Positions 9,659-48,852 of a stretch of 64,000 nt of DNA are shown here, piece by piece (positions within the stretch are counted from its first letter, which is position 1; each line of letters opens with the position of its first letter). The stretch comes from Craspedostauros australis. Lineage: Eukaryota; Bacillariophyta; Bacillariophyceae; Mastogloiales; Achnanthaceae. Location: contig JAMXDE010000005.1 of assembly GCA_026770025.1 (NCBI GenBank), positions 3,224,001-3,288,000 on the forward strand. The letters run 5' to 3'. Below the pieces are notes generated by a model that saw only the letters and a list, made by a program, of their open reading frames with translations, did no database searches and was not told the origin of the DNA. Position numbers and translations under genes: made by a program.

Positions 9659-12600
9659 ATGCAAGTCGAACAGTACCATCTCCGCGCGAGCAAGGCGCCG
9701 ATTGTTGGAGATTTTCAAGAAGATGAGTATTCTCCCTTCGAGGAAGAACATCACTCCAATACCAAAACCAACCCCGGTACCGAAACCACTCCTAATGCTA
9801 TCGGAACCTCCAACGCACCTGATGCCGCTGGCCCCTCAAGCGGCGTCGCTCCATGGAAGGACACATCGCAATTCCTCGGTAGAGAGGCAGAGCTCGAACA
9901 GCTCAAAGCTCTGAAGGACAAGATCATCGGGGAGCACCAGAGCAATGCCACTCCCCCTGCACCGGAATCATCTGCTGATGAGGACAAGGACAAGACCAAG
10001 GACAAGACCAAGGACAAGACCAAGGACAAGACCAAGGCAACAACGCCAGCACCCAAACCAAAGCCAAGCAAGAGACTCGATGTGCATCCAGCCGTTCTGG
10101 TCTGGGGTGTCAGCGGTACAGGAAAGTCTGCTCTCGTCGATCACTTCCTCGACACGTGCTGTATCTGCAACACTGGCGTCGACCAGAAGCAAACGAAGAC
10201 CGAACAAGCGGATGCAGGCGATGCAGCACCATCTTGCTCCTGCTGCTACGTTCTTCGTGGAAAGTATGACGAGTACACGGGTCAGAGTGACCCGTTCTCG
10301 GCCATCGTCCAAGCCCTCCAAGACTTCACGACCCAACTCAAGAACGGACCCAAGGAAGAACTCGATCGCATGCGTGAATGCGTGCGGAAGGCCTTCCCCA
10401 CTGGCGGACTTCGTCCAATGGTGAAAGTGGTGCCATCTCTCTCCATCCTGACGCCCAAGTCCACACGAGGCGACGCCTCCGTCATGAGCCAGTCCGTCAG
10501 CCGCCGCGATGACTACAGCCTGAGCATGCACGGCAGCCAGATGAACGGCGACGCACCGTCATCAGGGTCGGGTGGAGCAATCACCGAAAAGGCATGGAAC
10601 CAGCTCAAGTACATCTTCGTACAGTTCATCAAGGCAATCTCGACGAAGGAACGACCCATCTACATGTTCCTCGACGATCTGCAGTGGTCCGCTAACATCG
10701 GACTGGATCTGATCGCGCATATGGTGGGCGATCCAGCGATCAGACATTTCATGTTACTGGGCGCCATCCGCCAGGACACCAACCCACACACCGACGAACC
10801 ACTGGATCTCACTCCCGACCATCCTCTGGCACGATGCCTCGTCGCGCCGCTGTCGCCAGATGCTGCCATCGATAGCGACCCAAATGCAGCTGCTGGGCCT
10901 GACGATGCATCAGTCATGACCGCAACCACGGCAATGTCCCAAGTGGGCAAGCGTCGTTATCCAAGAAGTCTGCGCCAGATCACGATCACCAACCTCACGC
11001 TGGACGACATGACCGCATGGCTCTCGAGCATGCTGGACTGCAACGACATCGAAGATCTGTCCGAGAAGCTCTACGCCAAGACAGAGGGTAACGTCTACTT
11101 CACCTTGCAGGCTCTCGAAGAGCTCGAAAGGAAGGATATCCTCGCCTTCAACCTCCTTTCTCAACGATGGGAATGGAGCCTTTCCAACCCAGAGGATGAC
11201 GATGATAGCAACGCCGGCAGCGCCCAGCTGCCCATCAGCGACAACATCCTCGGTATCATCGAGTCCAAGCTGCGAGACCTTCCCATGCAGCTGCAACAGA
11301 TCCTGTCAGTTGCTGCCTACATCCGATCGACGTTCGAGATCTCTGTGCTGCTCAGGGTGCTCCAGAACGAGTGCAAGCATGTGGATGGTGAGATCGACTC
11401 CATGGAACGCATATCGACCGCCCAAGACCTCTCCGACATGCTGGAGACTGCAGTTCTGGAGCGTCTGATCTCCAACCCCATCGGTGGTACCAAGTATCAC
11501 TTCGCACATGATCGCATCCAGCAGGCGGCACAGGGCATGATCCCAGCCGGCGAAGCTCGCGACAAGCTGCGTGTGCGCATCGGGCACTGCTTGCTGAAGA
11601 TGCATCGACGCATGCAGGTTCGCCGTCAGCATGAGCAAGAGGAGGAGTTTGAAGAGACTCTGGAGGTCAACCATGGACACAAGAAGGCAAGCGGGATGGA
11701 AGCTCAAGACAAGTTCAACATGTCTTCTCAATCTACGCATTCGACAACGTCGGCCGAAACGTTCACTTCGACCTTGACCACTTCAGAAGTCGACGACGGT
11801 CTCCTGTTCGTGGCCGCGGACCACTTGAACAGCGTACCAACCAAGGACCATATTTTCTCTGCCACCATGAACATGGAGGTGGGTGACAAGGCCCTGGAGA
11901 TGGCAGCCCTCGAATCTGCCGTCGGATACCTGCAAAAGGCACATGCTGCGTTGCAGCGCGTGAGAAGTAGCGCACCGACGAAGACCTCCAGCAAGACCAA
12001 GGGATCTGCCAAAACCCAAGCCGCTCCCAGCCCATCCATCTGGGACAGCGATGAGCACTACGATCTCTGCCTGCACATATACTGCGCGCGTGCTGACGTT
12101 GAGCTGTCGCTGGGTAACTTTGAAGTCGGCTACAAGCTGTGCGACGAAGTGCTGGAGAGAGCCCGCTCGTTGGAGGACAAGATGGCGACTTACCTCTCCA
12201 TGGGAAGAGCCTTGGCCAGACAGGACCGCCATGCGGAAACCATGGCTGTGGAGCTGCGCTTGCTCCGGTCATTGAAGAGCTTCCCCAAGCGATGGTACGC
12301 GTTCCACATCATGAGATGCATGATGAAGATCAAGTCTTTCCTGAAGAAGAACACTAACGAGGAGATCCTCTCAAGACCACTCATGACGAACCCAAAGAAG
12401 CTCTTCGCCATGAAGGTTGGCGCCGACTTCGCCATTTGCACAAAGTCGACCGGCAACATGCTCATGGTGATCCTCAACCTCGGCAAGATGTTGTCCACCA
12501 CCATCAAGTACGGCATCTGCAAGGAATCAGCCAGCGCCTTCGTCACCTACGGCCTCGTCATTTGCAACATGGGAGACCAAGCTACAGCAGAACGCTGCAC

Positions 12601-13834
12601 AGAGATCTCGCATGCAATCCTCGATTTGGTTGACGGGAAAACGATCCAAGGCAACGTCCGATTTTTGACATCCTGGTACATCATCCCCTTCAGCCGTCCT
12701 TTCCCAGATGTCCTGCGGCAGTTCAGGAGAGGCTATCTGGATTCTCTGGAAGTCGGGGAGTTCGACATCGGCGTCATGTGTTATCAAGGCGCCATCTGCA
12801 TGGGATTGTACTACGGAATGGAGCTGGGACCGCTGCTCAAGGCGGCTGATGCAGCCCTTGACCAATTTGCAGCATACAACATCACGGCCTTCAGCGGCAT
12901 CGCTGTGCACCTTCGGGGCATATTTGCGAACTTCATGGAAGAAGAACCGATCAACTGGCCTGAGCTGGAAGAACTATCCAAGCGCGATGTCCTGACGGAG
13001 ACTCAGAATCAATCTGACCTCATCTCGGATTCGATGCTCTTCTACACGCGAGCCTTGCTGACCTTGTTCCATCGGCAGTACGAAATGGCGGAACGACTGA
13101 TCCGCAACTTCGTCCTCCTCAACATTGGCGAGATGTCATGCATGGTCATCATCGCCGAGTGCTACGTAGCAGGACTGATTTCCGCTGCGAGGTTCCGAGA
13201 GACAGGAAAACGCAGCTATCTCACGGCCCTGCCCAAGCTGACCAAGAAGCTGAGAGACACCGCCAAGGCCAGAGGCAAATACTGGGTGCACCAAGTGCTC
13301 CTGCTCGAAGCAGAAGAGCTCGCGATCACCCTCAAGAACAAGCAGAGCCCCAGGATCCAGCATGCCTACAACCTTGCGATCATCGCAGCAACGAAGGCTG
13401 GTTGCATTCACGACGTTGCCCTCGCCAACGAGCTGGCTGGAGAACACTTCGTCGAGCACGGCTCCAAGGAGATGGTTGGTGACTACTTCGTTCACGCCGT
13501 GGACTACTACAAGGCGTGGGGCGGCAAGAGCAAGGTCAACGACATCAAGAAGCGGCGCAAGCAGTACTTGAAGACCCTCAACGATCCCGATCGCCAGCGT
13601 CCGGAGGGCCTCACTGACGACGGCAACGGCAACTTCCTCTTCGGAATCACCCGGGATTCTTTCACTGGGGCGATCACTTCAAGATGCGCAGAGCTTGACG
13701 CATTCGCCGACCGTGGCAAGGGCGGTGATGGCCCTGGCAGTGCACTCGTGTTCGGGTCGGAGCTCGGAGATGGTATGGATGGTTCCGTGGGCCTCGATGA
13801 GGATGATCTGTCTGTGTTGACTGACATCGATTAA
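9659..13834 (+). CDS. STAND-type predicted ATPase with TPR-like repeats (copy 2)
   Basis: Single-exon, 1391 residues, with an ATG start conserved in copies 3 and 4. Domain order is as in copy 1: variable N-terminus, FLGREAELEQL, Walker A GVSGTGKS, Walker B MFLDDLQW, the YHFAHDRIQQAAQ block, long TPR-like helices, acidic tail ending SVLTDID. Four DKTK repeats lie before the ATPase domain. Compared with copy 3, the first roughly 850 residues show about 14 substitutions plus an indel. Residues of about 880-1205 show about 30 substitutions, and the last 180 residues are identical. In the stretches I compared base by base, almost every change in the variable segment alters the amino acid. The 3' flank carries a truncated P450 remnant, so the gene belonged to a duplicated ATPase-P450 unit. 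Confidence 0.9.
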   Translation: MQVEQYHLRASKAPIVGDFQEDEYSPFEEEHHSNTKTNPGTETTPNAIGTSNAPDAAGPSSGVAPWKDTSQFLGREAELEQLKALKDKIIGEHQSNATPPAPESSADEDKDKTKDKTKDKTKDKTKATTPAPKPKPSKRLDVHPAVLVWGVSGTGKSALVDHFLDTCCICNTGVDQKQTKTEQADAGDAAPSCSCCYVLRGKYDEYTGQSDPFSAIVQALQDFTTQLKNGPKEELDRMRECVRKAFPTGGLRPMVKVVPSLSILTPKSTRGDASVMSQSVSRRDDYSLSMHGSQMNGDAPSSGSGGAITEKAWNQLKYIFVQFIKAISTKERPIYMFLDDLQWSANIGLDLIAHMVGDPAIRHFMLLGAIRQDTNPHTDEPLDLTPDHPLARCLVAPLSPDAAIDSDPNAAAGPDDASVMTATTAMSQVGKRRYPRSLRQITITNLTLDDMTAWLSSMLDCNDIEDLSEKLYAKTEGNVYFTLQALEELERKDILAFNLLSQRWEWSLSNPEDDDDSNAGSAQLPISDNILGIIESKLRDLPMQLQQILSVAAYIRSTFEISVLLRVLQNECKHVDGEIDSMERISTAQDLSDMLETAVLERLISNPIGGTKYHFAHDRIQQAAQGMIPAGEARDKLRVRIGHCLLKMHRRMQVRRQHEQEEEFEETLEVNHGHKKASGMEAQDKFNMSSQSTHSTTSAETFTSTLTTSEVDDGLLFVAADHLNSVPTKDHIFSATMNMEVGDKALEMAALESAVGYLQKAHAALQRVRSSAPTKTSSKTKGSAKTQAAPSPSIWDSDEHYDLCLHIYCARADVELSLGNFEVGYKLCDEVLERARSLEDKMATYLSMGRALARQDRHAETMAVELRLLRSLKSFPKRWYAFHIMRCMMKIKSFLKKNTNEEILSRPLMTNPKKLFAMKVGADFAICTKSTGNMLMVILNLGKMLSTTIKYGICKESASAFVTYGLVICNMGDQATAERCTEISHAILDLVDGKTIQGNVRFLTSWYIIPFSRPFPDVLRQFRRGYLDSLEVGEFDIGVMCYQGAICMGLYYGMELGPLLKAADAALDQFAAYNITAFSGIAVHLRGIFANFMEEEPINWPELEELSKRDVLTETQNQSDLISDSMLFYTRALLTLFHRQYEMAERLIRNFVLLNIGEMSCMVIIAECYVAGLISAARFRETGKRSYLTALPKLTKKLRDTAKARGKYWVHQVLLLEAEELAITLKNKQSPRIQHAYNLAIIAATKAGCIHDVALANELAGEHFVEHGSKEMVGDYFVHAVDYYKAWGGKSKVNDIKKRRKQYLKTLNDPDRQRPEGLTDDGNGNFLFGITRDSFTGAITSRCAELDAFADRGKGGDGPGSALVFGSELGDGMDGSVGLDEDDLSVLTDID
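9989..10036 (+). repeat. 12-bp coding tandem repeat GACAAGACCAAG x4
   Basis: Four exact units encode DKTK repeats between the N-terminal FLGRE region and the Walker A motif. Copy 3 has three units (16615-16650), copy 4 has four (27817-27864), and copies 1 and 5 have none. The length change stays in frame, consistent with slippage in a flexible charged linker. Confidence 0.9.
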
Positions 13835-14123
13835 GCATGAGGAGCCTAGACCGTTACTCCATGGAGCACATAATCGTAGTATCGAACATGGACTAGAATA
13901 GTATATATCACGCTGCTGACTTCGTCTCTCCTTCGCTCATAGAAAGCGACTTTATGTGGAGTACCAAATGCGAGTTGTGGTGGTGATATGCAACGAGTAA
14001 ACCCAAACCATTCGATCCCCACATCCCCTCGCAAAAGGAATGGATCCGATCAGGCTGCCGCAAACGAATCGAGTTGTTGGCATGCGGCACCGCGATATGC
14101 CGCGTTGAAATTACAACCCCTCT

Positions 14124-14301
14124 TCAGTGTTGTCTTGGTCGGATCGTGAGGCCTACATCATCCGACGGGTCCAGTATCCCGAACTCGTCAAGGGTCATGT
14201 CGAACTCTGTTGTCCCCTCCACCTCGACATCAAATTGGTGGATCAAGCTAGCCACGAAGTTCTTGGCGGCGGCTGTCACGAACTTGCGAGCTGGGCAGTT
14301 G
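14124..14301 (-). pseudogene. Truncated cytochrome P450, 3' end only
   Basis: The minus strand encodes the last roughly 59 codons of a P450, from the heme-loop NCPARKF to a stop at 14124. It is nearly identical to the 3' end of the intact P450 at 31952-33857. Homology stops abruptly at 14301, just upstream of the heme Cys codon, and unrelated sequence follows. The 289-bp spacer between the STAND stop and the P450 stop is also shared with the 31.7-kb copy, so this is the broken end of a duplicated STAND-P450 unit. Confidence 0.88.
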
Positions 14302-15149
14302 CGGAACCCCCAACAATTTGTCGACATTTCTGATCAAAATACAACAATAAAATTGCGGGACACGAACAATCACAAAACATGAGCTTCACTCCAATTCGTC
14401 GAATTTTGTTGGAAGAGTTAGGAATCGGGCGTAGACGGCGCGAATCGGTGGAGGATACCTCGTGAATCTGCTGGCTTCGGGATAGCCGTGTGATGCAGTT
14501 CAAGAGAAGTGTACTGATTGAAGAGTTGTTACTGTAACGATGAGTAGAAGAGTGCTTTGTAGCTAATCCTTGTCTGTTTATTATGAGTTAGCTTGTAGTG
14601 TTAGTAGGGTGAAGAAACGATGCCACACAACTTGGCGAGACCCTGCACTGATGTACTTGGTTCAGCGCTTGAGGGTAGATGATCATAACAGTGCCTTGCT
14701 CTCCATACATGTAGATACACTGCAGTGTAGATCATGACGCATGTTAGTGATGGTCATGAAGCAGTGGCTGTGGCTGGAGCTGACCCTCGGATTCCATTGC
14801 TTGAGTTGAAGCAAGTTGGATACACACGTCAGGGCCACGGCGGTAGTGTAGTGGTTATCAGCATGGAGGGAATCGAGGTATGTTGTAGTAAGAGGATCTG
14901 AGGAGCATATAGTTCCCAAGGTGGGGTGTGAGTCAGGTCGGTCATGCTTGAGTCATGATGGATTCGTGAATGGAGGAGAGAAAGGAGGAGAAAAGATTTG
15001 GTGGTCAATCAAGTCGGAGGATTTCGCGCCAAAACAAGAATTTCTCCAATTGGGTTGATACCGTGTTCGGTAATAGTCTGTCCCTCATTGAATCTCAACT
15101 CCACCTTTATTTTGAGTTTCATGCGTGTAATGACTAGGCAAGAATGGAT
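14302..15149. repeat. Non-coding repeat-like sequence related to 25740-26494
   Basis: No gene is visible. Short segments match 25.7-26.5 kb in the same order: a GAAGAAAC..CTGCACTGA tract, CATAGTTCCCAAGGTG (near 14907 and 26097), and TTTCGCGCCAAAA (near 15026 and 26216). Each copy lies just before an upstream block of a STAND gene. It may be a decayed LTR or simply part of the ancestral duplicated flank; I cannot tell which. Confidence 0.45.
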
Positions 15150-16284
15150 TTCTTGTAATTACGCAATTCACCGTAGATCCGTTGGAACAAGAATTGGAGA
15201 AGCACAATTATCTTTGATCGTTCCCTCTGTCATGAATGATATAATTCCAGTCATACATGGTCATCGGCTTGTCAGCCCAAGAGGTTCCAATTGTACGTGG
15301 CAACCACAAATGGGACTGGTTCTCGCGCCAACAGAAACGAACGTTTGTTTCTCCAACACGTCCAATTCATCCACAGATATTCGCGCTGCAAGAAAGCTCG
15401 CCTCAGTTGGTTATCTTTCCGTCGTCGCCGGGGTCAATCTGGCCCATCACGAGGGGGCCATTCAGTCGTAATGGATTCAAGTAGGAAACGGTCGCACAAT
15501 CAATACATCAAGTTTCGCCTGAAGACACAAATTTGTCGCTCGTCTGGTCTTGATACTGTTGTCGCTCGCCTGCGGTTTCATTCGCGTTCATGAAAGCACA
15601 TGACAAAGAAGGAAGTGGCTCGTCACTTGTTCGCCGACGATGCGCCTTGGGCCTCTTGGTGCGATCGTCGCCTCTTTCCGCTGAAACTCAGGAAGTGTTC
15701 TTCGAGGAACGAATCAGCAACGCGACTATCGTCCACCGTTGTGAACACACAACAACACAAGATCGGCGACCACACCACGAATCACGCTTTCTCTTGGTGC
15801 AACAGTCCTGCGTCGGTTCCCTACCCAGCTACGAGCGCAAGTGTGGAACCAGGGCTGGTGCTATGTAACGTCAATGTTGTTGGTTCGATCATTAGGGATA
15901 TTGTTGATTTATGAGTCTGTTTTGTTGTTTTGCGCTGTTGCTTTGCGCCTGTGCTATTTGCATGTGTGTGGCTGTTTTCATCTTCGTTGCGTTTCTTCGC
16001 CTTGGTGCGGTCATGTGGACCCTTGTGAGCATGCTGTGTTCCTGCAGTGGCGAAGGCCACCCGTGTACCAACACTTTCCCTTGTGTTTGTGTTAGAATCG
16101 CTCGTTGGGATCCCGCAACAGAAAACGAGGAAGACGACCCCTCCTGCGCGCGCGTGTAGACTGTCTCAGCATCTCAAAAAGCTGTCAACCACAAGGTCAT
16201 CATAAAATTGACATGCTGCAGAAGTCGATCAGCTCTGCATCTCTTTGCGCGCACAAGTTGCTCTAATCCCATCCACACCGCGCC
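15150..16284. repeat. Duplicated upstream block B (before STAND gene 3)
   Basis: Homologous to blocks A and C, but with an extra segment of about 270 bp (about 15797-16075) absent from both and lacking about 40 bp present in them. From 16076 to the ATG it is almost identical to block C. No gene is supported inside the block. Confidence 0.7.
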
Positions 16285-19200
16285 ATGCAAGTCGAACAGT
16301 ACCATCTCCGCGCGAGCAAGGTGTCTATTGTTGGAGATTTTCAAGAAGATGAGTATTCTCCCTTCGAGGAAGAACATCACTCCAATACCAAAACCAACCC
16401 CGGTACCGAAACCACTCCTAATGCTATCGGAACCTCCAACGCACCTGATGCCGCTGGCCCCTCAAGCGGCGTCGCTCCGTGGAAGGACACATCGCAATTC
16501 CTCGGTAGAGAGGCAGAGCTCGAACAGCTCAAAGCTCTGAAGGACAAGGTCATCGGGGAGCACCAGAGCAATGCCACTCCCCCTGCACCGGAATCATCTG
16601 CTGATGAGGACAAGGACAAGACCAAGGACAAGACCAAGGACAAGACCAAGGCAACAACGCCAGCACCCAAACCAAAGCCAAGCAAGAGACTCGATGTACA
16701 TCCAGCCGTTCTGGTCTGGGGTGTCAGCGGTACAGGAAAGTCCGCTCTCGTTGATCACTTCCTCGACACGTGCTGTATCTGCAACACTGGCGTCGACCAG
16801 AAGCAGCAGCAGAGCAACGACCAGGCAGCGACAGCACCATCTTGCTCCTGCTGCTACGTTCTTCGTGGAAAGTATGACGAGTACACGGGTCAGAGTGACC
16901 CGTTCTCGGCCATCGTCCAAGCCCTCCAAGACTTCACGACCCAGCTCAAGAACGGACCCAAGGAAGAACTCGATCGCATGCGTGAATGCGTGCGGAAGGC
17001 CTTCCCCACTGGTGGACTTCGTCCAATGGTGAAAGTGGTACCGTCTCTCTCCATCCTGACGCCCAAGTCAGCCCGAGGCAATGCCTCCGTCATGAGCCAG
17101 TCCGTCAGCCGCCGCGATGACTACAGCATGAGCATGCACGGCAGCCAGATGAACGGCGACGCACCATCATCAGGGTCGGGTGGAGCCATCACCGAAAAGG
17201 CATGGGGCCAGCTCAAGTACATCTTCGTACAGTTCATCAAGGCAATTTCGACGAAGGAACGACCCATCTACATGTTCCTCGACGATCTGCAGTGGTCCGC
17301 TAACATCGGACTGGACCTGATCGCGCACATGGTGGGCGATCCAACGATCAGGCATTTCATGTTACTGGGAGCCATCCGCCAGGACACCAACCCACACACC
17401 GACGAACCACTGGATCTCACTCCCGACCATCCTCTGGCACGGCGCCTCGTCGCGCCGCTGTCGCCAGATGCTGCCATCGATAGCGACCCAAATGCAGCTG
17501 CTGGGCCTGACGATGCATCAGTCATGACTGCATCTACGGTAATGTCCCAAGTGGGCAAGCGTCGTTATCCAAGAAGTCTGCGCCAGATCACGATCACCAA
17601 CCTCACGCTAGACGACATGACCGCATGGCTCTCGAGCATGCTGGACTGCAACGACATCGAAGATCTGTCCGAGAAGCTCTACGCCAAGACAGAGGGTAAC
17701 GTCTACTTCACCTTGCAGGCTCTCGAAGAGCTCGAAAGGAAGGATATCCTCGCCTTCAACCTCCTTTCTCAACGATGGGAATGGAGCCTTTCCAACCCAG
17801 AGGACGACGACGATAGCAACGCCGGCAGCGCCCAGCTGCCCATCAGCGACAACATCCTCGGTATCATCGGGTCCAAGCTGCGAGACCTTCCCATGCAGCT
17901 GCAACAGATCTTGTCAGTTGCTGCCTACATCCGATCGACGTTCGAGATCTCTGTGCTGCTCAGGGTGCTCCAGAACGAGTGCAAGCATGTGGATGGTGAG
18001 ATCGACTCCATGGACCGCATATCGACCGCCCAAGACCTCTCCGACATGCTGGAGACTGCAGTTCTGGAGCGTCTGATCTCCAACCCCATCGGTGGTACCA
18101 AGTATCACTTCGCACATGATCGCATCCAGCAGGCGGCACAGGGCATGATCCCAGCCGGCGAAGCTCGCGACAAGCTGCGTGTGCGCATCGGGCACTGCTT
18201 GCTGAAGATGCATCGACGCATGCAGGTTCGCCGTCAGCATGAGCAAGAGGAGGAGTTTGAAGAGACTCTGGAGGTCAACCATGGACACAAGAAGGCAAGC
18301 GGGATGGAAGCTCAAGACAAGTTCAACATGTCTTCTCAATCTACGCATTCGACAACATCGGCCGAAACGTTCACTTCGACCTTGACCACTTCAGAAGTCG
18401 ACGACGGTCTCCTGTTCGTGGCCGCGGACCACTTGAACAGCGTGCCAACCAAGGACCATATTTTCTCTGCCACCATGAACATGGAGGTGGGTGACAAGGC
18501 CCTGGAGATGGCAGCCCTCGAATCTGCCGTCGGATACCTGCAAAAGGCACATGCTGCGTTGCAGCGCGTGAGAAGTAGCGCACCGACGAAGGCCTCCAGC
18601 AAGACCAAGGGATCTGCCAAAACCCAAGCCGCTCCCAGCCCATCCATCTGGGACAGCGATGAGCACTACGATCTCTGCCTGCACATATACTGCGCGCGTG
18701 CTGACGTTGAGCTGTCGCTGGGTAACTTTGAAGTCGGCTACAAGCTGTGCGACGAAGTGCTGGAGAGAGCCCGCTCGTTGGAGGACAAGATGGCGACTTA
18801 CCTCTCCATGGGAAGAGCCTTGGCCAGACAGGACCGCCATGCGGAAACCATGGCTGTGGAGCTGCGCTTGCTCCGGTCATTGAAGAGCTTCCCCAAGCGA
18901 TGGTACACGTTCCACACCAAGAGATGCATGAGGAAGATCAAGTCTTTCCTGAAGAAGAACACTAACGAGGAGATCCTCTCAAGACCACTCATGACGAACC
19001 CAAAGAAGCTCTTCGCCATGAAGGTTGGCGCCGACTTCGCCATTTGCACAAAGTCGACCGGCAACATGCATCTGGTGACCCTCAACCTCGGCAAGATGTT
19101 GTCCACCACCATCAAGTACGGCATCTGCAAGGAATCGGCCGCCGCCTTCGTCACCTACGGCCTCGTCATTTGCAACATGGGAGACCAAGCTACAGCAGAA

Positions 19201-20442
19201 CGCTGCACAGAGATCTCGCATGCAATCCTCGATTTGTTTGACGGGAAATCGATCCAAGGCAACGTCCGATTTTTGACATCCTGGTACATCATCCCCTTCA
19301 AGTGTTCTTTCCCAGACTCCCTGCGGCAGTTCAGGAGAGGCTATCTGGATTCTCTGGAGGTCGGGGAGTTCGACATCGGCGTCATGTGTTATCAAGGCGC
19401 CATCTGCATGGGACTGTACTACGGAATGGAGCTGGGATCGCTGCTCAAGGCGGCTGATGCAGCCCTTGACCAATTTGCAGCATACAACATCACTGCCTTC
19501 ATCGGCCTCTCCGTGAACCTTCGGGTCATATTCGCAAACTTCATGGAAGAAGAGCCGATCAACTGGCCTGAGCTGGAAGAATTATCCAAGCGCGATGTCC
19601 TGACGGAGACTCAGGATCAATCTGACCTCATCTTCGATTCGATGCTCTTCTACACGCGAGCCTTCCTGACCTTGTTTCATCGGCAGTACGAAATGGCGGA
19701 ACGCCTGATCCGCAACTTCGTCCTCCTCAATCTTGGCGAGATGTCATGTATGGTCATCATCGCCGAGTGCTACGTAGCAGGACTGGCTGCCGCTGCGAGG
19801 TTCCGAGTGACAGGAAAACACAGCTATCTCACGGCCCTGCGCAAGCTGACCAAGAAGCTGAGAGACACCGCCAAGGTCAGAGGCAAATACTGGGTGCACC
19901 AAGTGCTCCTGCTCGAAGCAGAAGAGCTCGCGATCACCCTCAAGAACAAGCAGAGCCCCAGGATCCAGCATGCCTACAACCTTGCGATCATCGCAGCAAC
20001 GAAGGCTGGTTGCATTCACGACGTTGCCCTCGCCAACGAGCTGGCTGGAGAACACTTCGTCGAGCACGGCTCCAAGGAGATGGTTGGTGACTACTTCGTT
20101 CACGCCGTGGACTACTACAAGGCGTGGGGCGGCAAGAGCAAGGTCAACGACATCAAGAAGCGGCGCAAGCAGTACTTGAAGACCCTCAACGATCCCGATC
20201 GCCAGCGTCCGGAGGGCCTCACTGACGACGGCAACGGCAACTTCCTCTTCGGAATCACCCGGGATTCTTTCACTGGGGCGATCACTTCAAGATGCGCAGA
20301 GCTTGACGCATTCGCCGACCGTGGCAAGGGCGGTGATGGCCCTGGCAGTGCACTCGTGTTCGGGTCGGAGCTCGGAGATGGTATGGATGGTTCCGTGGGC
20401 CTCGATGAGGATGATCTGTCTGTGCTGACTGACATCGATTAA
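16285..20442 (+). CDS. STAND-type predicted ATPase with TPR-like repeats (copy 3)
   Basis: Single-exon, 1385 residues, intact. Same architecture as copies 2 and 4, with Walker A GVSGTGKS, Walker B MFLDDLQW, TPR-like C-terminal half and SVLTDID tail. It differs from copy 2 by one fewer DKTK unit, a short indel after DQKQ, and a cluster of replacements in the TPR-like region. Examples are FHIMRCMMK to FHTKRCMRK, NMLMVI to NMHLVT, and PFSRPFPDV to PFKCSFPDS. Homology to the other units ends about 55 bp after the stop, so no P450 remains at this copy. Confidence 0.9.
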   Translation: MQVEQYHLRASKVSIVGDFQEDEYSPFEEEHHSNTKTNPGTETTPNAIGTSNAPDAAGPSSGVAPWKDTSQFLGREAELEQLKALKDKVIGEHQSNATPPAPESSADEDKDKTKDKTKDKTKATTPAPKPKPSKRLDVHPAVLVWGVSGTGKSALVDHFLDTCCICNTGVDQKQQQSNDQAATAPSCSCCYVLRGKYDEYTGQSDPFSAIVQALQDFTTQLKNGPKEELDRMRECVRKAFPTGGLRPMVKVVPSLSILTPKSARGNASVMSQSVSRRDDYSMSMHGSQMNGDAPSSGSGGAITEKAWGQLKYIFVQFIKAISTKERPIYMFLDDLQWSANIGLDLIAHMVGDPTIRHFMLLGAIRQDTNPHTDEPLDLTPDHPLARRLVAPLSPDAAIDSDPNAAAGPDDASVMTASTVMSQVGKRRYPRSLRQITITNLTLDDMTAWLSSMLDCNDIEDLSEKLYAKTEGNVYFTLQALEELERKDILAFNLLSQRWEWSLSNPEDDDDSNAGSAQLPISDNILGIIGSKLRDLPMQLQQILSVAAYIRSTFEISVLLRVLQNECKHVDGEIDSMDRISTAQDLSDMLETAVLERLISNPIGGTKYHFAHDRIQQAAQGMIPAGEARDKLRVRIGHCLLKMHRRMQVRRQHEQEEEFEETLEVNHGHKKASGMEAQDKFNMSSQSTHSTTSAETFTSTLTTSEVDDGLLFVAADHLNSVPTKDHIFSATMNMEVGDKALEMAALESAVGYLQKAHAALQRVRSSAPTKASSKTKGSAKTQAAPSPSIWDSDEHYDLCLHIYCARADVELSLGNFEVGYKLCDEVLERARSLEDKMATYLSMGRALARQDRHAETMAVELRLLRSLKSFPKRWYTFHTKRCMRKIKSFLKKNTNEEILSRPLMTNPKKLFAMKVGADFAICTKSTGNMHLVTLNLGKMLSTTIKYGICKESAAAFVTYGLVICNMGDQATAERCTEISHAILDLFDGKSIQGNVRFLTSWYIIPFKCSFPDSLRQFRRGYLDSLEVGEFDIGVMCYQGAICMGLYYGMELGSLLKAADAALDQFAAYNITAFIGLSVNLRVIFANFMEEEPINWPELEELSKRDVLTETQDQSDLIFDSMLFYTRAFLTLFHRQYEMAERLIRNFVLLNLGEMSCMVIIAECYVAGLAAAARFRVTGKHSYLTALRKLTKKLRDTAKVRGKYWVHQVLLLEAEELAITLKNKQSPRIQHAYNLAIIAATKAGCIHDVALANELAGEHFVEHGSKEMVGDYFVHAVDYYKAWGGKSKVNDIKKRRKQYLKTLNDPDRQRPEGLTDDGNGNFLFGITRDSFTGAITSRCAELDAFADRGKGGDGPGSALVFGSELGDGMDGSVGLDEDDLSVLTDID

Positions 20443-22951: not shown

Positions 22952-23370
22952 ATGATTGATCAGATTGGAGCCTCCCCACGGCTGGTGCAGGGCATGAGAG
23001 TTGGATTGGTGAGTTGGAGGAGGAATGTGCGCTCCAACAACTCGCAAAGTGCCATCGGGTGGTACCCTCTCCTGTTGGGATTTATTCCTGAGGATTGGAT
23101 CCACCAGCAAGCTCAGTGGATGGTGACGCACGAGTGTCGATGCCCTGACACAGGTGCTTGGGCTAGGGAGATAGTGCGTTGGATCTGGAAATACCCTGGG
23201 AGGTGTGGCTGGCCAGGAATGCCAAAGTTCATGATGAGGAAGGGCATCCCATAGTGCAGGACTTGTGCAGACAGGTCCGTCAACTGACACAGGTGTTGGC
23301 AAGTTCCATGATTGGAAGTCTACGATCGTGGAAGATGGTGTTGGTTGATAGTCGTTTGTTTGCTATTTCA
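22952..23370 (+). pseudogene. Fragment of retroelement polyprotein (C-terminal tail after reverse transcriptase)
   Basis: Two frames joined by one frameshift near 23190 resemble the tail found after the reverse transcriptase in diatom retroelements. The first reads SAIGWYPLLLGFIPEDWIHQQ then EIVRWIW; the second reads EIPWEVWLARNAKVHDE. The W-x-x-RN-x-x-x-H pattern and the preceding IGW..GFI..W segment are the basis. No catalytic RT motif or intact frame is present, so this is a relic. The assignment is from memory of the family and is moderate. Confidence 0.45.
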
Positions 23371-24168
23371 TTACGTTGGCACTCCGATACTCTCGGTGTC
23401 CGTTCGTTCTCTTGCCCGATGCTCTTGGCGCATTTGTCTGTTTCGTAGATTCAGTCTCCGACTATGAGTCGGTATGCGAGATCCTCTCTCGCTACTCTTC
23501 GTATTCTCTCTCTCTCTCAATATCGTATGCTCCTGCTACACGATACTTCGCATTCGATGCATACTCTGCATCCGATACTCTGTTCGTTCACTACTGGTTC
23601 CTACTCCATGAATACTTACCATTTGAACTTCACCTCTCATATCCATGATCTTGATGCCCTTTGGTCATCGGATCTTCGCCTCCTGCTCTGACCTGGAGAC
23701 AGATGTCGACGTGGTGACACGATGACATCCTGTCAATGTCAGTAGGCATCCTTCTGATCTCCAGATGTCACGTTCCATTGGTGATGCAGTAGTCTGTCAG
23801 ATGATATCGTCATCTGAGGTTTAGTTGGGAAGTACCTCGAGATTCTCTTGGTACCATTGATGGATGGACGGACGATCTTCCAATTCTCTCAGAAATCGTT
23901 GTTTGCAAATTTCCTCCAGAAATTCTGCTCATTTTCGTGTGTTCCATTTCCACTGTAATTCTGATGAATCACAGCATACTATTGACACGAATGTAGTTAT
24001 ACCGTACAAGTGCGTATGAGAGAATAACGGGTGAACGATGCACATATACACGTACATCTCGACATATACTCACATGTACATCTCGACAGAAACCACAAAA
24101 ACTCCCAAATTGCCGTTGGAGGAGCGATTCGAGATGAAGACACAAGACGAGACCCGGACGAAAAGTGA
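23371..24168. other. Intergenic, simple-sequence-like
   Basis: TC-rich stretches (around 23505-23520) and repeated ATACTC..GAT words (23450-23600) give weak low-complexity frames. No gene is supported. Confidence 0.5.
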
Positions 24169-24214
24169 GAGTTGAGTTATGAACGCTCTTGTTGGGGCGT
24201 TCATAACTCAACTC
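24169..24214. repeat. Perfect 18-bp inverted repeat with 10-nt loop
   Basis: The arm GAGTTGAGTTATGAACGC (24169-24186) is exactly complementary to 24197-24214, separated by ten bases. It lies in an AT-rich non-coding region. It would form a strong hairpin in RNA from either strand. It could be a small-RNA precursor, a transposon end or a cruciform; no function is claimed. Confidence 0.9.
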
Positions 24215-26494
24215 CAGGATTTCATAATTTTTCCGATTGACGTTATATGCTCGTTTCGGTCCTGGTCACCCCCTGTTCGGAAGGTATCTTGTGTTCATAA
24301 TGGAGTGATCTGATTGGCTTAGAAGCCGATATTATGAAAATATGAGTCACACAACCACGTCCAGTATTCTGTGTTGTGTGCTTGGTTCGTGTTTCGCATT
24401 CACAAGGATTTTGACTGCTGTGTCCGGAATCGGGTGTTCTTAAACACCGAATTGCTGCACCCCCCAAGAGTGTGGAGTCGAGCGTCAGGAAAAGATATAT
24501 TATCACACCTCCCGCTTTGGATCTTTGTCACACCAAAATTGTGAGCTGCACGTGTTTTTGCGGTGGAGAACGCCACGTGCCGAATGCGAACCGGGCTGTG
24601 ACGTTCGTGACCTCAATGCAGGAATGGAAGTCACACCTGTATGTCACAGGGGGCAACGATGTTGGATTGTGACCAGCATCACAATACACTCAACTACAGC
24701 CCCTGTGCCGCAACGAACAAGAATAGAGTATACAAGACAGGCCGGCGTCGCGAAGTGTGAGATGGCTCGTGAAAGAGTCCCTGATGACAATCCGGTGAAT
24801 GATCGGAGAAGGATCGGAGATTGTCCCAGAATGAGAAGTCAGAGGAGGAAACATCCAAGCTGTTCTTGTGAAACATGGAGACCATGATCTGATCAAATGG
24901 AACGAGTCAGGTGTATTAGGAATTGAGGGTACGCTTTTACCAAGGTATCCATGATTGCCTCACCTTCCAATTATAGTGTCACGACTCGATGGAATCAACT
25001 TTTTTGATCACACTCGGACCACCTTGTAGCTTGTCCCTCCTCACTCCTCCATCAGTGACTGACATCAAACACAGTCATGTCCTGCCATAGAGTCTATCCA
25101 TGCACCATCGCTGAAATGAGGGCAAACCTATGATTCAACCACTAGCGATGTATTCGCACATGAGCCAAGCCTATGTGTGATACTGTCAATAAGTCCCAAG
25201 CATGTTGACACGCATCGACAGACAAGGAGTCACCCCAATGGGAGAAATGGTGAGAAGGAGAAACGGAGGTGATCCCTTATTCACCCAAGAGCACAAATGA
25301 CGACACAACATCAATCAAACATGACCACTGAGCAAGTCATGATGGCATAGGAAGAATACTGAGGAATCAAAGATGAAGTGGGATCGATCAGTGTGAGACC
25401 CATGCTGAGGTACCTGTGTGGCTACGAGAAATAGTGCTCGAATGTAGAAGAGGCATGACACTATGGATATGCACGATGAATCTGCAGGAGAGAGCATGAG
25501 AGCAAGATGATCAAGCAGAGGAAAGCAACCATGAACATGTATATGACAATAGTTGGATTTTTGTGTACTGTTGTGACACGATCCGGAAGGGATGGCCTAG
25601 TTGACTGCCAGATTCTAGGAATCTGATGGTGAAGTCAACGTGGGGCGACCGTCTGGAGATTAGTAGTGTGTGTGTGTGTGACAATGAAGTAGATTAGTGT
25701 TGTTGTGCTGATCTTGAGTTGTGCTATTTGTTATTTGAATAGTCTGCATTGTGAGTTGATCAGTTTGAGACGTAGGATGAAGAAACAATTGTTAGTTGAG
25801 TAGTGCGGCTCTGCACTGACCTTTGGAGGTTCAGTGCTGAAGGCGGATGGGTCCTCTCTTTCTCTCTTTCTCCAGTATCTCATCGTAGTTGTTCTACGTT
25901 CGAGTACAAAGCCTTGACACCTTGATTGAGGTTGAGATCGAGAACACAGGTTGTCAGGGCAAGGGAATTGATGTAGGATTCCCTGCATGTGTTGAAGCTG
26001 GGAAGATCTCTTTGGCTATTGTCATGCGGGGCTATCAGGTTGCATAGCTGACAATGGAATTCAGGTTGGCAGCATTGCAATAGCTCAGGAGAGCACATAG
26101 TTCCCAAGGTGTCTTGATCCATTGACTCGAATAGTATTCGAGTCAGTGGTGATTCATGAGTGAAAGTGGGAGAAGGAGGGAAAATAGTGATTGTTCCGTA
26201 TTTGTTGGTGGGAGGTTTCGCGCCAAAATTTCGCGCCAAAATAATTTCATGGTGCGACAAGGAACACACTGAGTGAAAAAGTAGTCCGTTCTTTAGATGA
26301 ACTTCAACTACAATGGTGAATTGTTACCAATCATGCTTACTGTGGAATTGGAATTGAAGAGAGTCAAGTTGTTTGTTCTCACAGTTCTAAAATGGTACGA
26401 TCTAAAAACAGATTAGTTCATACTAGAACTCCGGATTTCCAACACTTGCGGATATCCATTTCAAACGGTTGGTTGACTCGCTGATCGAGGTCTG
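24215..26494. other. Repeat-rich intergenic, no supported gene
   Basis: There is a (TG)n run near 25662-25680. A region at 25740-26494 is related in order and words to 14302-15149. A 129-codon minus-strand frame (25880-26269) shows weak similarity to a shorter minus frame at 14683-14919, which again points to a shared repeat rather than a gene. I see no transposase or RT motif. Confidence 0.45.
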
Positions 26495-27486
26495 TTCCGA
26501 TTCACTTAGATCGTTCAAGTCGAATGATTGTGTTTGAGTAAATAAACTAAATGTGTATAATACCGTAACTACCAGTGAAATGCTGTATTGATCGTAATCA
26601 CAAAATTCACCGGAGCTCCTTACGAACCAGGATTGGAGAAGCACAATTATCTTTGATCGTTCCCTCAGCCACGAATGATATAATTTTAGTCATATCCGGT
26701 CATCGACTTGTCAGCCCAAGAGGGTTCAATTGTACGTGGCATCCACAAATGGGACTGGTTCTCGCGCCAACAGAAACGAACGCTTGTTTCTCTAGCACAT
26801 CCAATTCAGTCTCAGTTATTCGCGCTGCAAGAAAGCTCGCGTCATTTGGTCATCTTTCCGTCGCCGCCAGGGTCAATCTGGCCCATCACGAGGGGGCCAT
26901 TCAGTCGCAAGAGATTCAAGTAGGAAACGGTCGCACAATCAATACATCAAGTTTCGCCTGAAGACACAAATTTGTCGCTCGTCTGGTCTTGATACTGTTG
27001 TCGCTCGCCTGCGGTTTCATTCGCGTTCACGAAAGCACGTGACAAAGAAGGAAGTAGCTCGTCACATCTTCGCCGACGATGCGCCTTGGGCCTTCTGGCA
27101 CGATCATTGCCTCTTTGCGATGAAACTCCGCACATTTTTTGGGTGGAGGCATCAACAACGCGACCAGTGCCCGCCGCTGTGAACACACAACACCACAACA
27201 GTTTTCTTCGCGAAGTTGTTGCTGGCATGTGCGAGAGAGTCAACACAAGATCAACAACAACACCACGGATCACGCTTTCCCTTGTGTTTGTGTCAGAATC
27301 ACTCGTTGGGATCCCGCAACAGAAAACGAGGAAGACGACCCCCTCCTGCGCGCGCGTGTAGACTGTCTCAGCATCTCAAAAAGCTGTCAACCACAAGGTC
27401 ATCATAAAATTGACATGCTGCAGAAGTCGATCAGCTCTGCATCTCTTTGCGCGCACAAGTTGCTCTAATCCCATCCACACCGCGCC
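26495..27486. repeat. Duplicated upstream block C (before STAND gene 4)
   Basis: Homologous to blocks A and B, and a mosaic of them. 26930-27045 follows block B, 27046-27385 follows block A (including the ATTTTTTGGGTGGAGGC segment), and 27386-27486 again follows block B. It contains the promoter-proximal sequence of STAND gene 4. Confidence 0.75.
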
Positions 27487-30400
27487 ATGCAAGTCGAACA
27501 GTACCATCTCCGCGCGAGCAAGGCGCCGATTGTTGGAGATTTTCAAGAAGATGAGTATTCTCCCTTCGAGGAAGAACATCACTCCAATACCAAAACCAAC
27601 CCCGGTACCGAAACCACTCCTAATGCTATCGGAACCTCCAACGCACCTGATGCCGCTGGCCCCTCAAGCGGCGTCGCTCCATGGAAGGACACATCGCAAT
27701 TCCTCGGTAGAGAGGCAGAGCTCGAACAGCTCAAAGCTCTGAAGGACAAGATCATCGGGGAGCACCAGAGCAATGCCACTCCCCCTGCACCGGAATCATC
27801 TGCTGATGAGGACAAGGACAAGACCAAGGACAAGACCAAGGACAAGACCAAGGACAAGACCAAGGCAACAACGCCAGCACCCAAACCAAAGCCAAGCAAG
27901 AGACTCGATGTGCATCCAGCCGTTCTGGTCTGGGGTGTCAGCGGTACAGGAAAGTCTGCTCTCGTCGATCACTTCCTCGACACGTGCTGTATCTGCAACA
28001 CTGGCGTCGACCAGAAGCAAACGAAGACCGAACAAGCGGATGCAGGCGATGCAGCACCATCTTGCTCCTGCTGCTACGTTCTTCGTGGAAAGTATGACGA
28101 GTACACGGGTCAGAGTGACCCGTTCTCGGCCATCGTCCAAGCCCTCCAAGACTTCACGACCCAGCTCAAGAACGGACCCAAGGAAGAACTCGATCGCATG
28201 CGTGAATGCGTGCGGAAGGCCTTCCCCACTGGTGGACTTCGTCCAATGGTGAAAGTGGTACCGTCTCTCTCCATCCTGGCGCCCAAGTCAGCTCGAGGCA
28301 ATGCCTCTGTCATGAGCCAGTCCGTCAGCCGCCGCGATGACCACAGCATGAGCATGCACGGCAGCCAGATGAACGGCGACGCACCGTCATCAGGGTCGGG
28401 TGGAGCCATCACCGAAAAGGCATGGAACCAGCTCAAGTACATCTTCGTACAGTTCATCAAGGCAATCTCGACGAAGGAACGACCCATCTACATGTTCCTC
28501 GACGATCTGCAGTGGTCCGCTAACATCGGACTGGACCTGATCGCGCACATGGTGGGCGATCCAGCGATCAGACATTTCATGTTACTGGGCGCCATCCGCC
28601 AGGACACTAACCCGCACACCGACGAACCACTGGATCTCACCCCCGACCATCCTCTGGCACGGTGCCTCGTCGCGCCGCTGTCGCCAGATGCTGCCGTCGA
28701 TAGCGACCCAAATGCAGCTGCTGGGTCTGATGATGCATCAGTCATGACTGCATCCACGGCAATGTCCCAAGTGGGCACGCGTCATTATCCAAGAAGTCTG
28801 CGCCAGATCACGATCACCAACCTCACGCTGGACGACATGACCGCATGGCTCTCGAGCATGCTGGACTGCAACGACATCGAAGATCTGTCTGAGAAGCTCT
28901 ACGCCAAGACAGAGGGTAACGTCTACTTCACCTTGCAGGCTCTCGAAGAGCTCGAAAGGAAGGATATCCTCGCCTTCAACCTCCTTTCCCAGCAATGGGA
29001 ATGGAGCCTTTCCAACCCAGAGGATGACGATGATAGCAACGCCGGCAGCGCCCAGCTGCCCATCAGCGACAACATCCTCGGTATCATCGAGTCCAAGCTG
29101 CGAGACCTTCCCATGCAGCTGCAACAGATCCTGTCAGTTGCTGCCTACATCCGATCGACGTTCGAGATCTCGGTGATGCTCAGGGTGCTCCAGAACGAGT
29201 GCAAGCATGTGGATGGTGAGATCGACTCCATGGACCGCATATCGACCGCCCAAGACCTCTCCGACATGCTGGAGACTGCAGTTCTGGAGCGTCTGATCTC
29301 CAACCCCATCGGTGGTACCAAGTATCACTTCGCACATGATCGCATCCAGCAGGCGGCACAGGGCATGATCCCAGCTGGCGAAGCTCGCGACAAGCTGCGC
29401 GTGCGCATCGGGCACTGCTTGCTGAAGATGCATCGACGCATGCAGGTTCGCCGTCAGCATGAGCAAGAGGAGGAGTTTGAAGAGACTCTTGAGGTCAACC
29501 ATGGGCACAAGAAGGCAAGCGGGATGGAAGCTCAAGACAAGTTCAACATGTCTTCTCAATCTACGCATTCGACAACATCGGCCGAAACCTTCACTTCGAC
29601 CTTGACCACTTCAGAAGTCGATGACGGTCTCCTGTTCGTGGCTGCGGACCACTTGAACAGCGTGCCAACCAAGGATCATATTTTCTCTGCCACCATGAAC
29701 ATGGAGGTGGGTGACAAGGCCCTGGAGATGGCAGCCCTCGAATCTGCCGTCGGATACCTGCAAAAGGCACATGCTGCGTTGCAGCGCGTGAGAAGCAGCG
29801 CACCGACGAAGGCCTCCACCAAGACCAAGGGATCTGCCAAAACCCAAGCCGCTCCCGGCTCATCCATCTGGGACAGCGACGAGCACTACGATCTCTGCCT
29901 GCACATCCACTGCGCGCGTGCTGACGTTGAGCTGTCGCTGGGCAACTACGAAGTCGGCTACAAGCTGTGCGACGACGTGCTGGAGAGAGCCCGCTCGTTG
30001 GAGGACAAGATGGCGACATACCTCTCCATGGGAAGAGCCTTGGCCAGACAGGACCGCCATGCGGAAACCATGGCTGTGGAGCTGCGCTTGCTCCGGTCAT
30101 TGAAGAGCTTCCCCAAGCGATGGTACACGTTCCACATCATGAGATGCATGATGAAGATCAAGTCCTTCCTGAAGAAGAACACCAACGAGGAGATCCTCTC
30201 AAGACCACTGATGACGAACCCAAAGAAGCTCTTCGCCATGAAGGTTGCCCTCGACTTCAGCATTTGCACGAAGACGACCGGCAACATGCTCATGGTGATC
30301 CTCAACCTCGGCAAGATGATGTCCACCACCATCAAGTACGGCATCTGCAAGGAATCGGCCGCCGCCTTCGTCACCTACGGCCTCGTCATTTCCAACATGG

Positions 30401-31662
30401 GAGACCAAGCTACAGCAGAACGCTGCACAGAGATCTCGCATGCAATCCTCGATTTGGTTGACGGAAAAACGAGCCAAGGCCAAGTCCGATTTTTGACATC
30501 CTGGTACATCATCCCCTTCAAGTGTCCTTTCCCAGACGTCCTGCGGCAGTTCAGGAGAGGCTATCTGGATTCTCTGGAGGTCGGAGAGTTTGACATGGGC
30601 CTCATGAATTACCAAGGCGCCATTTGCATGGGAATGTACTACGGAATGGAGCTGGGACCGCTGCTCAAGGCGGCTGATGCGGCCCTTGATCAATATGCAG
30701 CATACAAGGTCACAGGCTTCAGCGGCGTCGCCGTGAACCTTCGGGTCATATTCGCAAACTTCCTGGAAGAAGAGCCGATCAACTGGCCTGAGTTGGAACA
30801 ATTATCCAAGCGGGATGTCCTGACGGAGACTCTAGATCAATCTGACCTCGTCTTCGATTCGATGCTCTTCTACACGCGAGCCTTCCTGACCTTGTTCCAT
30901 CGGAAGTACGAAATGGCGGAACGACTGATCCGCAACTTCGTCCTCCTCAACATTGGCGAGATGTCATGCATGGTCATCATCGCCGAGTGCTACGTAGCAG
31001 GACTGGCTGCCGCCGAGAGGTTCCGAGTGACAAGAAAACGCAGTTATCTCACAACCCTGCGCAAGCTGACCAAGAAGCTGAGAGACACCGCCGAGGTCAG
31101 AGGCAAATTCTGGATGTACCAAGTGCTCTTGATGGAGGCAGAAGAGCTCGCAATCACCCTCAAGAACAAGCAGGACCCCAAGATCCAGCATGCCTACAAC
31201 CTTGCGATCGCCGCAGCAACCAAGGCTGGCTGCATCCATGAAATTGCCCTCGCCAACGAGATGGCTGGAGAACACTTCGTCGAGCACGGCTCCAAGGAGA
31301 TGGTTGGTGACTACTTCGTTCACGCTGTGGACTACTACGCGGCGTGGGGCTGCAAGAGCAAGGTCAACGACATCAAGAAGCGGCGCAAGCAGTACTTGAA
31401 GACCCTCAACGATCCCGATCGCCAGCGTCCGGAGGGCCTCACTGACGACGGCAATGGCAACTTCCTCTTCGGAATCACCCGGGATTCTTTCACTGGGGCG
31501 ATCACTTCAAGGTGCGCAGACCTTGATACATTCGCCGACCGTGGCAAGGGTGGCGATGGTCCTGGCAGTGCGCTCGTGTTCGGGTCGGAGCTCGGAGATG
31601 GTATGGATGGTTCCGTGGGCCTCGATGAGGATGATCTGTCTGTGTTGACCGACATCGATTAA
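27487..31662 (+). CDS. STAND-type predicted ATPase with TPR-like repeats (copy 4)
   Basis: Single-exon, 1391 residues, intact, with Walker A GVSGTGKS, Walker B MFLDDLQW and the SVLTDID tail. The first 225 codons match copy 2, including the four DKTK units and the KTEQADAG insert. From about 28163 it switches to copy-3-like bases (for example GGTACCGTC and the SARGNAS segment). The TPR-like half then carries many private replacements, such as VALDFSICTKTTGN, GLMNYQG and KVTGFSGVAVN. This mosaic points to gene conversion. It converges on an intact P450 289 bp downstream. Confidence 0.9.
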   Translation: MQVEQYHLRASKAPIVGDFQEDEYSPFEEEHHSNTKTNPGTETTPNAIGTSNAPDAAGPSSGVAPWKDTSQFLGREAELEQLKALKDKIIGEHQSNATPPAPESSADEDKDKTKDKTKDKTKDKTKATTPAPKPKPSKRLDVHPAVLVWGVSGTGKSALVDHFLDTCCICNTGVDQKQTKTEQADAGDAAPSCSCCYVLRGKYDEYTGQSDPFSAIVQALQDFTTQLKNGPKEELDRMRECVRKAFPTGGLRPMVKVVPSLSILAPKSARGNASVMSQSVSRRDDHSMSMHGSQMNGDAPSSGSGGAITEKAWNQLKYIFVQFIKAISTKERPIYMFLDDLQWSANIGLDLIAHMVGDPAIRHFMLLGAIRQDTNPHTDEPLDLTPDHPLARCLVAPLSPDAAVDSDPNAAAGSDDASVMTASTAMSQVGTRHYPRSLRQITITNLTLDDMTAWLSSMLDCNDIEDLSEKLYAKTEGNVYFTLQALEELERKDILAFNLLSQQWEWSLSNPEDDDDSNAGSAQLPISDNILGIIESKLRDLPMQLQQILSVAAYIRSTFEISVMLRVLQNECKHVDGEIDSMDRISTAQDLSDMLETAVLERLISNPIGGTKYHFAHDRIQQAAQGMIPAGEARDKLRVRIGHCLLKMHRRMQVRRQHEQEEEFEETLEVNHGHKKASGMEAQDKFNMSSQSTHSTTSAETFTSTLTTSEVDDGLLFVAADHLNSVPTKDHIFSATMNMEVGDKALEMAALESAVGYLQKAHAALQRVRSSAPTKASTKTKGSAKTQAAPGSSIWDSDEHYDLCLHIHCARADVELSLGNYEVGYKLCDDVLERARSLEDKMATYLSMGRALARQDRHAETMAVELRLLRSLKSFPKRWYTFHIMRCMMKIKSFLKKNTNEEILSRPLMTNPKKLFAMKVALDFSICTKTTGNMLMVILNLGKMMSTTIKYGICKESAAAFVTYGLVISNMGDQATAERCTEISHAILDLVDGKTSQGQVRFLTSWYIIPFKCPFPDVLRQFRRGYLDSLEVGEFDMGLMNYQGAICMGMYYGMELGPLLKAADAALDQYAAYKVTGFSGVAVNLRVIFANFLEEEPINWPELEQLSKRDVLTETLDQSDLVFDSMLFYTRAFLTLFHRKYEMAERLIRNFVLLNIGEMSCMVIIAECYVAGLAAAERFRVTRKRSYLTTLRKLTKKLRDTAEVRGKFWMYQVLLMEAEELAITLKNKQDPKIQHAYNLAIAAATKAGCIHEIALANEMAGEHFVEHGSKEMVGDYFVHAVDYYAAWGCKSKVNDIKKRRKQYLKTLNDPDRQRPEGLTDDGNGNFLFGITRDSFTGAITSRCADLDTFADRGKGGDGPGSALVFGSELGDGMDGSVGLDEDDLSVLTDID

Positions 31663-31951
31663 GCATGAGGAGCCTAAACCGTTGCTCCGTGGAGTACATA
31701 CTCGTAGTATCGAACTTGGAATAGAATAGTATATATCACACTGCTGATTTCGTCTCTCCTTCACTCGTAGAAAGCGACTATATGTGGAGTATCAAATGCG
31801 AGTTGTGGTGGTGATATGCAACGAGTAAACCCAAACCATTCGATCCCCACATCCCCTCGCAAAAGGAATGGATCCGATCAGGCTGCCGCAAACGAATCTA
31901 GTTGTTGGCATGCGGCACCGCAGTATGCCGCGTTGAAATTACAACCCCTCT

Positions 31952-48794: not shown

Positions 48795-48852
48795 ATAAGT
48801 GATGTCAAGATTCGCCCTGATGTGCTATTCCCGGACAAACATGCTTCTTCTG

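Follow-up and report, generated by a model that had tools for sequence, protein, structure and literature searches.

The 64,000-nucleotide stretch of the diatom Craspedostauros australis genome analyzed here (the window; contig C3, positions 3,224,001-3,288,000, in an assembly of 74.8 Mb on 90 contigs) encodes five paralogous AAA_16-TPR proteins, members of a large family in this genome. The best reading of these proteins is a diversifying switch or sensor family that is NLR-like in mode and not NLR by membership. Each pairs a conserved ATPase half with a faster-evolving C-terminal helical half, and in one subclade a class of helical sites changes amino acids faster than synonymous sites change. 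That this amounts to a diversifying recognition family is judged an even call.

All five copies lie on the forward strand as uninterrupted open reading frames (ORFs) of 1385-1407 residues: c1 at 1549-5739 (1396 residues), c2 at 9659-13834 (1391), c3 at 16285-20442 (1385), c4 at 27487-31662 (1391), and c5 at 53242-57465 (1407). Copies c2, c3, and c4 are 94-96% identical to one another; c1 is 72-73% and c5 56-57% identical to these three. The copies could alternatively be haplotype or assembly duplicates, an idea opposed by their standing in tandem on a single contig.

The AAA_16 domain scores above the Pfam cut-off in all five copies (E 1.6e-15 to 1e-16). In c2, where the features given next are likewise on the forward strand, it spans residues 144-365 (10088-10753; E 1.6e-15) and includes a Walker A motif, GVSGTGKS (10106-10129), and a Walker B motif, YMFLDDLQW (10661-10687). 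Further downstream lies the motif FAHDRIQQAA (11501-11530), the position of which we take to resemble that of the MHD motif in NLR winged helices. The SGTGKS core, the DDLQW of Walker B, and the HD of the downstream motif are kept in all 33 intact members studied, so that the P-loop, hhhhDD Walker B, and downstream HD by which STAND/AAA_16 switch ATPases are recognized occur in every one. A TPR_12 match at residues ~800-880 is present in 5 of 5 window copies, below the Pfam cut-off (E 7.8e-4 to 0.024). The variable helical segment comprises residues 851-1250 of c2 (12209-13408), and alignment offsets place it on the forward strand at 4105-5304 in c1, 18817-20016 in c3, 30037-31236 in c4, and approximately 55831-57030 in c5.

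Both termini carry short conserved motifs. A tail of the form S[VIA][LI]T, represented in c2 by DEDDLSVLTDID (13796-13831, forward strand), is found near the end of all 33 intact members, and a strict version ending in TD is found in 26. The corresponding DNA pattern has 38 matches in the whole genome and none in a reversed control; 27 of these matches are other than DDTMSVFTD, and the seven of them that were fetched are all C-termini of the family. The remaining 11 are a different repeated sequence, DDTMSVFTD, and were rejected, the fetched example (L045) lying outside the family. This peptide recurs on 11 contigs, and L045 is an unrelated ORF that is possibly transposon-borne. At the other end, 5 of the 33 intact members have the N-terminal motif EFYDDGYTEEEQN in strict form and 14 in a looser but recognizable one; c5 matches it with FSSGREFYDDGYTEEEQN (53302-53355, forward strand). 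Its genome pattern gives 14 matches against none in the reversed control, and both fetched matches belong to the family.

No attached signaling module accompanies this core. A Pfam scan of the five window copies returned neither NB-ARC nor NACHT (E up to 0.1) and no kinase, GAF, or output domain; with no other domain above the cut-off to serve as an effector, the short N-terminal motif is all that these copies offer in that position. Assignment to a known anti-phage or defense family was rejected, since PADLOC applied to three proteins gave only mad8, in one of them, at E 0.019. An NCBIfam equivalog was likewise rejected after a scan of three proteins gave one weak match far under the cut-off. 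As for sequence searches against the PDB, one had no matches and the other five weak P-loop matches, the best at E 0.11.

The family extends well beyond the window. A search with c2 gives 44 genome matches, and clustering of all searches yields ~79 distinct loci, 17 of them in a ~330-kb cluster at C3:2.95-3.28 Mb. The tally draws on searches with c2, two divergent members, the AAA_16 profile, and the two terminal peptide motifs; its underlying match lists are lower bounds, and it includes two broken copies. Full-length protein searches contribute 51 loci, the AAA_16 profile alone 8, which are counted on that match and not on full architecture, and the terminal motifs alone 19, of which nine were checked and all nine belong to the family. 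The 11 DDTMSVFTD matches were excluded beforehand. Thirty-five full-length loci were studied, the five window copies and 30 that were fetched (here given L numbers); L001-L008 were dropped because they occupy the same places as later-fetched loci or window copies. Thirty-three are uninterrupted, and L029 and L032, which have broken reading frames, were set aside. The same genome holds two NB-ARC loci and one NACHT locus. The preliminary description of this stretch, made from the letters alone, had reported five STAND ATPase paralogs with a variable TPR-like segment as a candidate diversifying receptor family; it is confirmed in part, in that the ATPase-TPR family is real and larger than first reported. 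Within the ATPase cluster, silicon-transporter fragments lie at C3:3130208-3195663. Silicon transporters form a very large family spread over many contigs of this genome: Silic_transp has 88 matches, and a hand count puts 28 of these at nearly full length with no stop.

The closest pairs locate the variation. Between c2 and c3, a recount agrees with the numbers first given: 14 replacements in residues 1-850, 30 in residues 881-1204, and none after 1204. Eight further replacements fall within an indel-affected stretch at 179-189. The binomial chance of placing 30 of 44 replacements in 326 of 1391 residues is ~4e-10. It had also been claimed, from parts of the segment compared base by base, that almost all differences are replacements; for the segment this does not hold, as residues 881-1204 contain 13 synonymously changed codons. 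Over residues 851-1250 there are ~16 synonymous and 34 replacement differences, with a synonymous rate (dS) of 0.059, a nonsynonymous rate (dN) of 0.038, and a dN/dS ratio (omega) of 0.65, compared with 0.22 in residues 141-850 (Fisher p = 0.019). Replacements are thus overrepresented in the c2/c3 segment compared with the remainder of the gene, yet omega there stays below 1. A test for such a segment excess in seven close pairs is significant in five (c2/c3, c2/c4, L021/L022, L016/L018, and L034/L037; p 0.019 to 0.0007). The seven are not independent, because they were picked for closeness and have members in common.

Most of the remaining comparisons were made within four subclades: A (c2, c3, c4, L019, L013, and L010), B (L012, L014, L016, L017, L018, L021, and L022), C (L023-L027), and D (L034, L035, L037, and L038). 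Pairwise counting and maximum likelihood agree on an omega at residues 851-1250 of 0.41 in A and 0.51 in B. Elsewhere in these two subclades it is 0.21-0.23 in two stretches of the ATPase half and 0.18-0.25 at residues 1251-1391, so that the segment evolves at about twice the omega of the ATPase half. This bears out the earlier picture of a conserved NTPase half joined to a fast helical half in a tandem family. Segment omega is 0.27-0.45 in C and 0.34-0.50 in D.

Positive selection was examined with purpose-written site models, fitted with a separate tree for each 100-codon block. In the subclade B segment, ~10% of sites fall in a class with omega ~3.1, and twice the log-likelihood difference (2dl) is 28.1; the same model gives 2dl 0.00 in the N-terminal half and 0.34 at the C-terminal end. 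Under a null simulated on the block trees, none of 36 simulations reaches 28.1 (largest 17.5), and none of 34 does when trees are mixed every 25 codons (largest 18.8). Allowing the synonymous rate to vary among sites lowers 2dl to 6.61, a value reached by 2 of 120 nulls, and gives weaker support. The fast sites of B are also regularly spaced. Among the top 25 there are 9 pairs at i+4, where 3.4 are expected and none of 4000 jittered sets reaches that number; among the top 40 there are 13 pairs against 5.8 expected (p 0.001), and i+8 spacing is in excess as well. Residues 925, 937, 941, 1010, 1018, 1121, 1152, and 1163 are among the fast sites of B. This periodicity suggests that the fast sites in B may occupy one exposed face of the helices.

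A considerable body of results weighs against a diversifying reading of the whole family. Segment-wide omega is below 1. Subclade A, which holds c2-c4, has no significant site class (2dl 0.99), nor has D (2dl 0.85, uncalibrated), and the signal in C (2dl 7.28, uncalibrated) rests on one site. Adding taxa lowers the signal, to 2dl 5.78 with 14 taxa and 8.31 with 19, both uncalibrated. The i+4 excess is missing from A, while C and D are borderline for it. Tested for phase relative to the hydrophobic face (p 0.66 in A, 0.24 in B, 0.000 in C, and 0.039 in D), fast sites lie opposite that face in C and D and not in A or B; in A, B, and D they are, if anything, a little above average in hydrophobicity. 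As proxies for a single surface, these sequence tests give a mixed result. Two of the seven close pairs show no significant segment excess of replacements (L024/L027, p 0.40; L035/L038, p 0.21). Finally, the contrast between halves is weak in C and reversed in L026/L027, in which omega is 0.44 in the ATPase half and 0.30 in the segment.

The preliminary description had held that a dN/dS near or below 1 across the segment would refute its proposal. The segment-wide value is indeed below 1; the pair closest to 1 is L021/L022, the only one to reach 1.04. Segment-wide positive selection is accordingly ruled out on the omega values fitted in subclades A and B. What survives of the proposed positive selection is the site class in subclade B; it does not extend to A or D, or to the segment as a whole.

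These results bear on an explanation by relaxed constraint and sub-functionalization, in which the proteins form an ordinary expanded family of signaling or stress regulators of bacterial-sensor ancestry with a less constrained helical half. A segment omega of 0.4-0.5, which still indicates purifying selection, agrees with it, as does the lack of a site class in A and D. When sites picked in one subclade were measured in the others, they gave an omega of 0.44-0.99 against 0.33-0.51 for the remaining segment sites, none above 1. Hot positions are therefore shared across subclades, yet omega does not exceed 1 outside the subclade in which they were picked; the ranking of sites in A correlates with that in B (rho 0.26), whereas A-D, B-C, and C-D correlate weakly and A-C and B-D do not. 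The bacterial relatives described below, which are two-component or cyclase sensors, also suit an ordinary signaling family. Relaxation accounts poorly, in contrast, for a site class in B that survives two calibrated nulls, for the i+4 spacing of fast sites there, and for the large, clustered copy number. It is a credible competitor, somewhat more apt to be wrong than right.

Gene copies also look like recombination mosaics. For residues 1-140, 141-850, 851-1250, and 1251-1391, dS between c2 and L010 is 1.78, 0.47, 0.15, and 0.51, and between L019 and L013 it is 0.72, 0.40, 0.19, and 0.09; between L023 and L024 it is 0.08, 0.59, and 1.06 for the last three intervals. Runs of shared variable sites are longer than under permutation (Bonferroni p <0.05) in 10 of 15 pairs in A, 14 of 21 in B, and 5 of 10 in C. 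As evidence for mosaicism the dS contrast is the stronger, because shared runs are also lengthened by rates that differ along the gene. Of the 43 codons in residues 851-1250 that differ between c2 and c3, 25 have both states represented in other family members, 13 only the c2 state, and 5 only the c3 state. Much of the segment variation thus recurs in other copies, and it may be reshuffled among them as well as arise by fresh mutation.

The same observations invite an explanation of the whole pattern as a recombination artefact: gene conversion would homogenize the ATPase half and the C-terminal end while the segment keeps an older divergence, and tree error would inflate the omega class. The several-fold variation in within-pair dS along the gene, as in L023/L024, fits this account, and so does the finding that all 43 differing c2/c3 codons have at least one state in another member. 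Conversion alone, however, shifts dS along with dN and leaves omega no higher. The trees were moreover refitted every 100 codons, and when they were mixed every 25 codons the null simulations fell short of the observed value. An artefact of this kind is improbable.

Relatives outside diatoms help to place the proteins. A nine-member profile run against bacterial contigs found that, among 571 candidate stretches, at least 498 code for a relative; 80 were kept (L049-L128), mostly from cyanobacteria, which align over query residues ~146-1306 at 21-28% identity. Because the alignment spans this range, the variable segment has a homologous counterpart in the bacterial proteins and is not an insertion. 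Four of the 80 were scanned for domains: all four have AAA_16 and GAF, three have a protein kinase domain, two HATPase_c, and two a guanylate cyclase. The window proteins are the middle module of such bacterial sensors, standing alone. In a viral collection, four contigs (L129-L132) encode distant ATPase-TPR relatives at 22-23% identity.

Taken as a diversifying switch or sensor family, the proteins would be cytosolic STAND-type switch ATPases to which no effector domain is attached. In STAND switches, the resting and active states reside in the ATPase half, and sensing in the helical half. By analogy, the conserved half from the AAA_16 ATPase to the HD motif would act as a nucleotide-controlled switch, and the C-terminal TPR-like half as the sensor. 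Because no effector domain is fused, the S-x-[LI]-T tail, together with EFYDDGYTEEEQN at the N-terminus in part of the family, would be the likely sites at which a common downstream partner docks, in place of the kinase, GAF, histidine-kinase, or cyclase domains that are fused in the bacterial relatives. The family probably grew by tandem duplication and dispersal, with ectopic recombination homogenizing parts of copies and shifting segments among them, while selection would tolerate, and in at least one subclade favor, amino-acid change on sensor helix faces. Architecture, copy number, relaxed or elevated sensor omega, mosaicism, and conservation of switch motifs and tail are established by the data. 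A family that grows, recombines, and varies in this way behaves as diversifying recognition families do. What it recognizes would be non-self or variable environmental ligands; an immune or allorecognition role remains inference.

A more ambitious proposal can be framed: that the ~79 or more effector-less STAND ATPases, descended from a bacterial kinase-ATPase-TPR sensor, are the main intracellular non-self recognition repertoire of this diatom, with a TPR face diversified by paralogue recombination and selection, signaling through shared N- and C-terminal docking tails, and NB-ARC and NACHT nearly absent. This is doubtful as a whole. Even as a relaxed signaling family, the conserved terminal tails would point to a likely common partner.

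Duplication extends to the surroundings of several of the five genes. A ~5.6-kb unit containing c2 (8674-14301, forward strand) is 94.8% identical to its counterpart containing c4 (26501-32129, forward strand). A cytochrome P450-like gene on the reverse strand adjoins c1 (6006-7881) and has a duplicate, also on the reverse strand, adjoining c4 (31947-33867); a further 181-base piece of it lies at 14119-14299. The regions upstream of c2, c3, and c4 (8669-9658, 15057-16284, and 26496-27486) were duplicated together with the genes, that of c3 being diverged and carrying additional sequence, and no convincing gene was found in these three regions. Elsewhere in the window, a GTG-start ORF of 1272 residues (40836-44654, forward strand) has no Pfam match at E 0.01, its translation being transposase-like by impression only, and an inverted repeat of ~390 bases (48852-49239 and 52049-52429) is 86% identical between its arms.

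Among known systems, the bacterial Pkinase-AAA_16-(TPR)-GAF-HisKA/HATPase or -guanylate cyclase sensors of cyanobacteria and others share a homologous ATPase and helical half with the diatom proteins, which are without the kinase, GAF, HisKA, and cyclase domains that belong to these sensors. Brown-algal NB-ARC-TPR receptors are among the nearest kinds (Zambounis 2012, Teng 2023, as cited in PMC11378527). As passages of that source present them, they resemble the present family as stramenopile proteins with a STAND-type NTPase and a TPR-like half, tandem expansion, variable repeats, and a candidate receptor role. They differ in having NB-ARC where the diatom family has AAA_16 with a sub-threshold TPR match, and in encoding one repeat per exon with exon shuffling. 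The diatom genes are uninterrupted ORFs of ~1400 codons; a single such ORF leaves no place for exon shuffling, and diversity would come instead from paralogue recombination and substitution. Other diatom genome papers touch on related families: tandem families including LRR proteins and cyclases are reported for Seminavis, and "AAA" is absent from that main text (PMC7335047), and four contracted NLRC3-annotated genes are reported for Pleurosigma (PMC12803021). Among the open-access PMC papers searched, none was found that describes intracellular recognition receptors of the AAA_16-TPR kind in diatoms, and other printed work may differ.

NLRs proper are defined by an NB-ARC or NACHT domain and an N-terminal effector, and the five window copies have neither. 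They also have C-terminal repeats that form a superstructure, where the window copies show TPR_12 below its cut-off. Fungal NLRs with WD, ANK, or TPR repeats combine a nucleotide switch with a repeat sensor in large variable repertoires and, according to sections of PMC4986451, their TPR and ANK repeats have positively selected positions. These fungal proteins also possess an N-terminal effector and a NACHT or NB-ARC domain, none of which Pfam detects in the diatom copies, in which the repeats are degenerate. Among the four subclades, only B shows site-level selection of the NLR type in the repeat part; A and D lack it, and C has a single site. If the family does consist of recognition receptors, recognition of viruses, bacteria, or mates in diatoms becomes testable, and diatoms would possess a large, clustered, recombining STAND repertoire unlike NB-ARC and NACHT.

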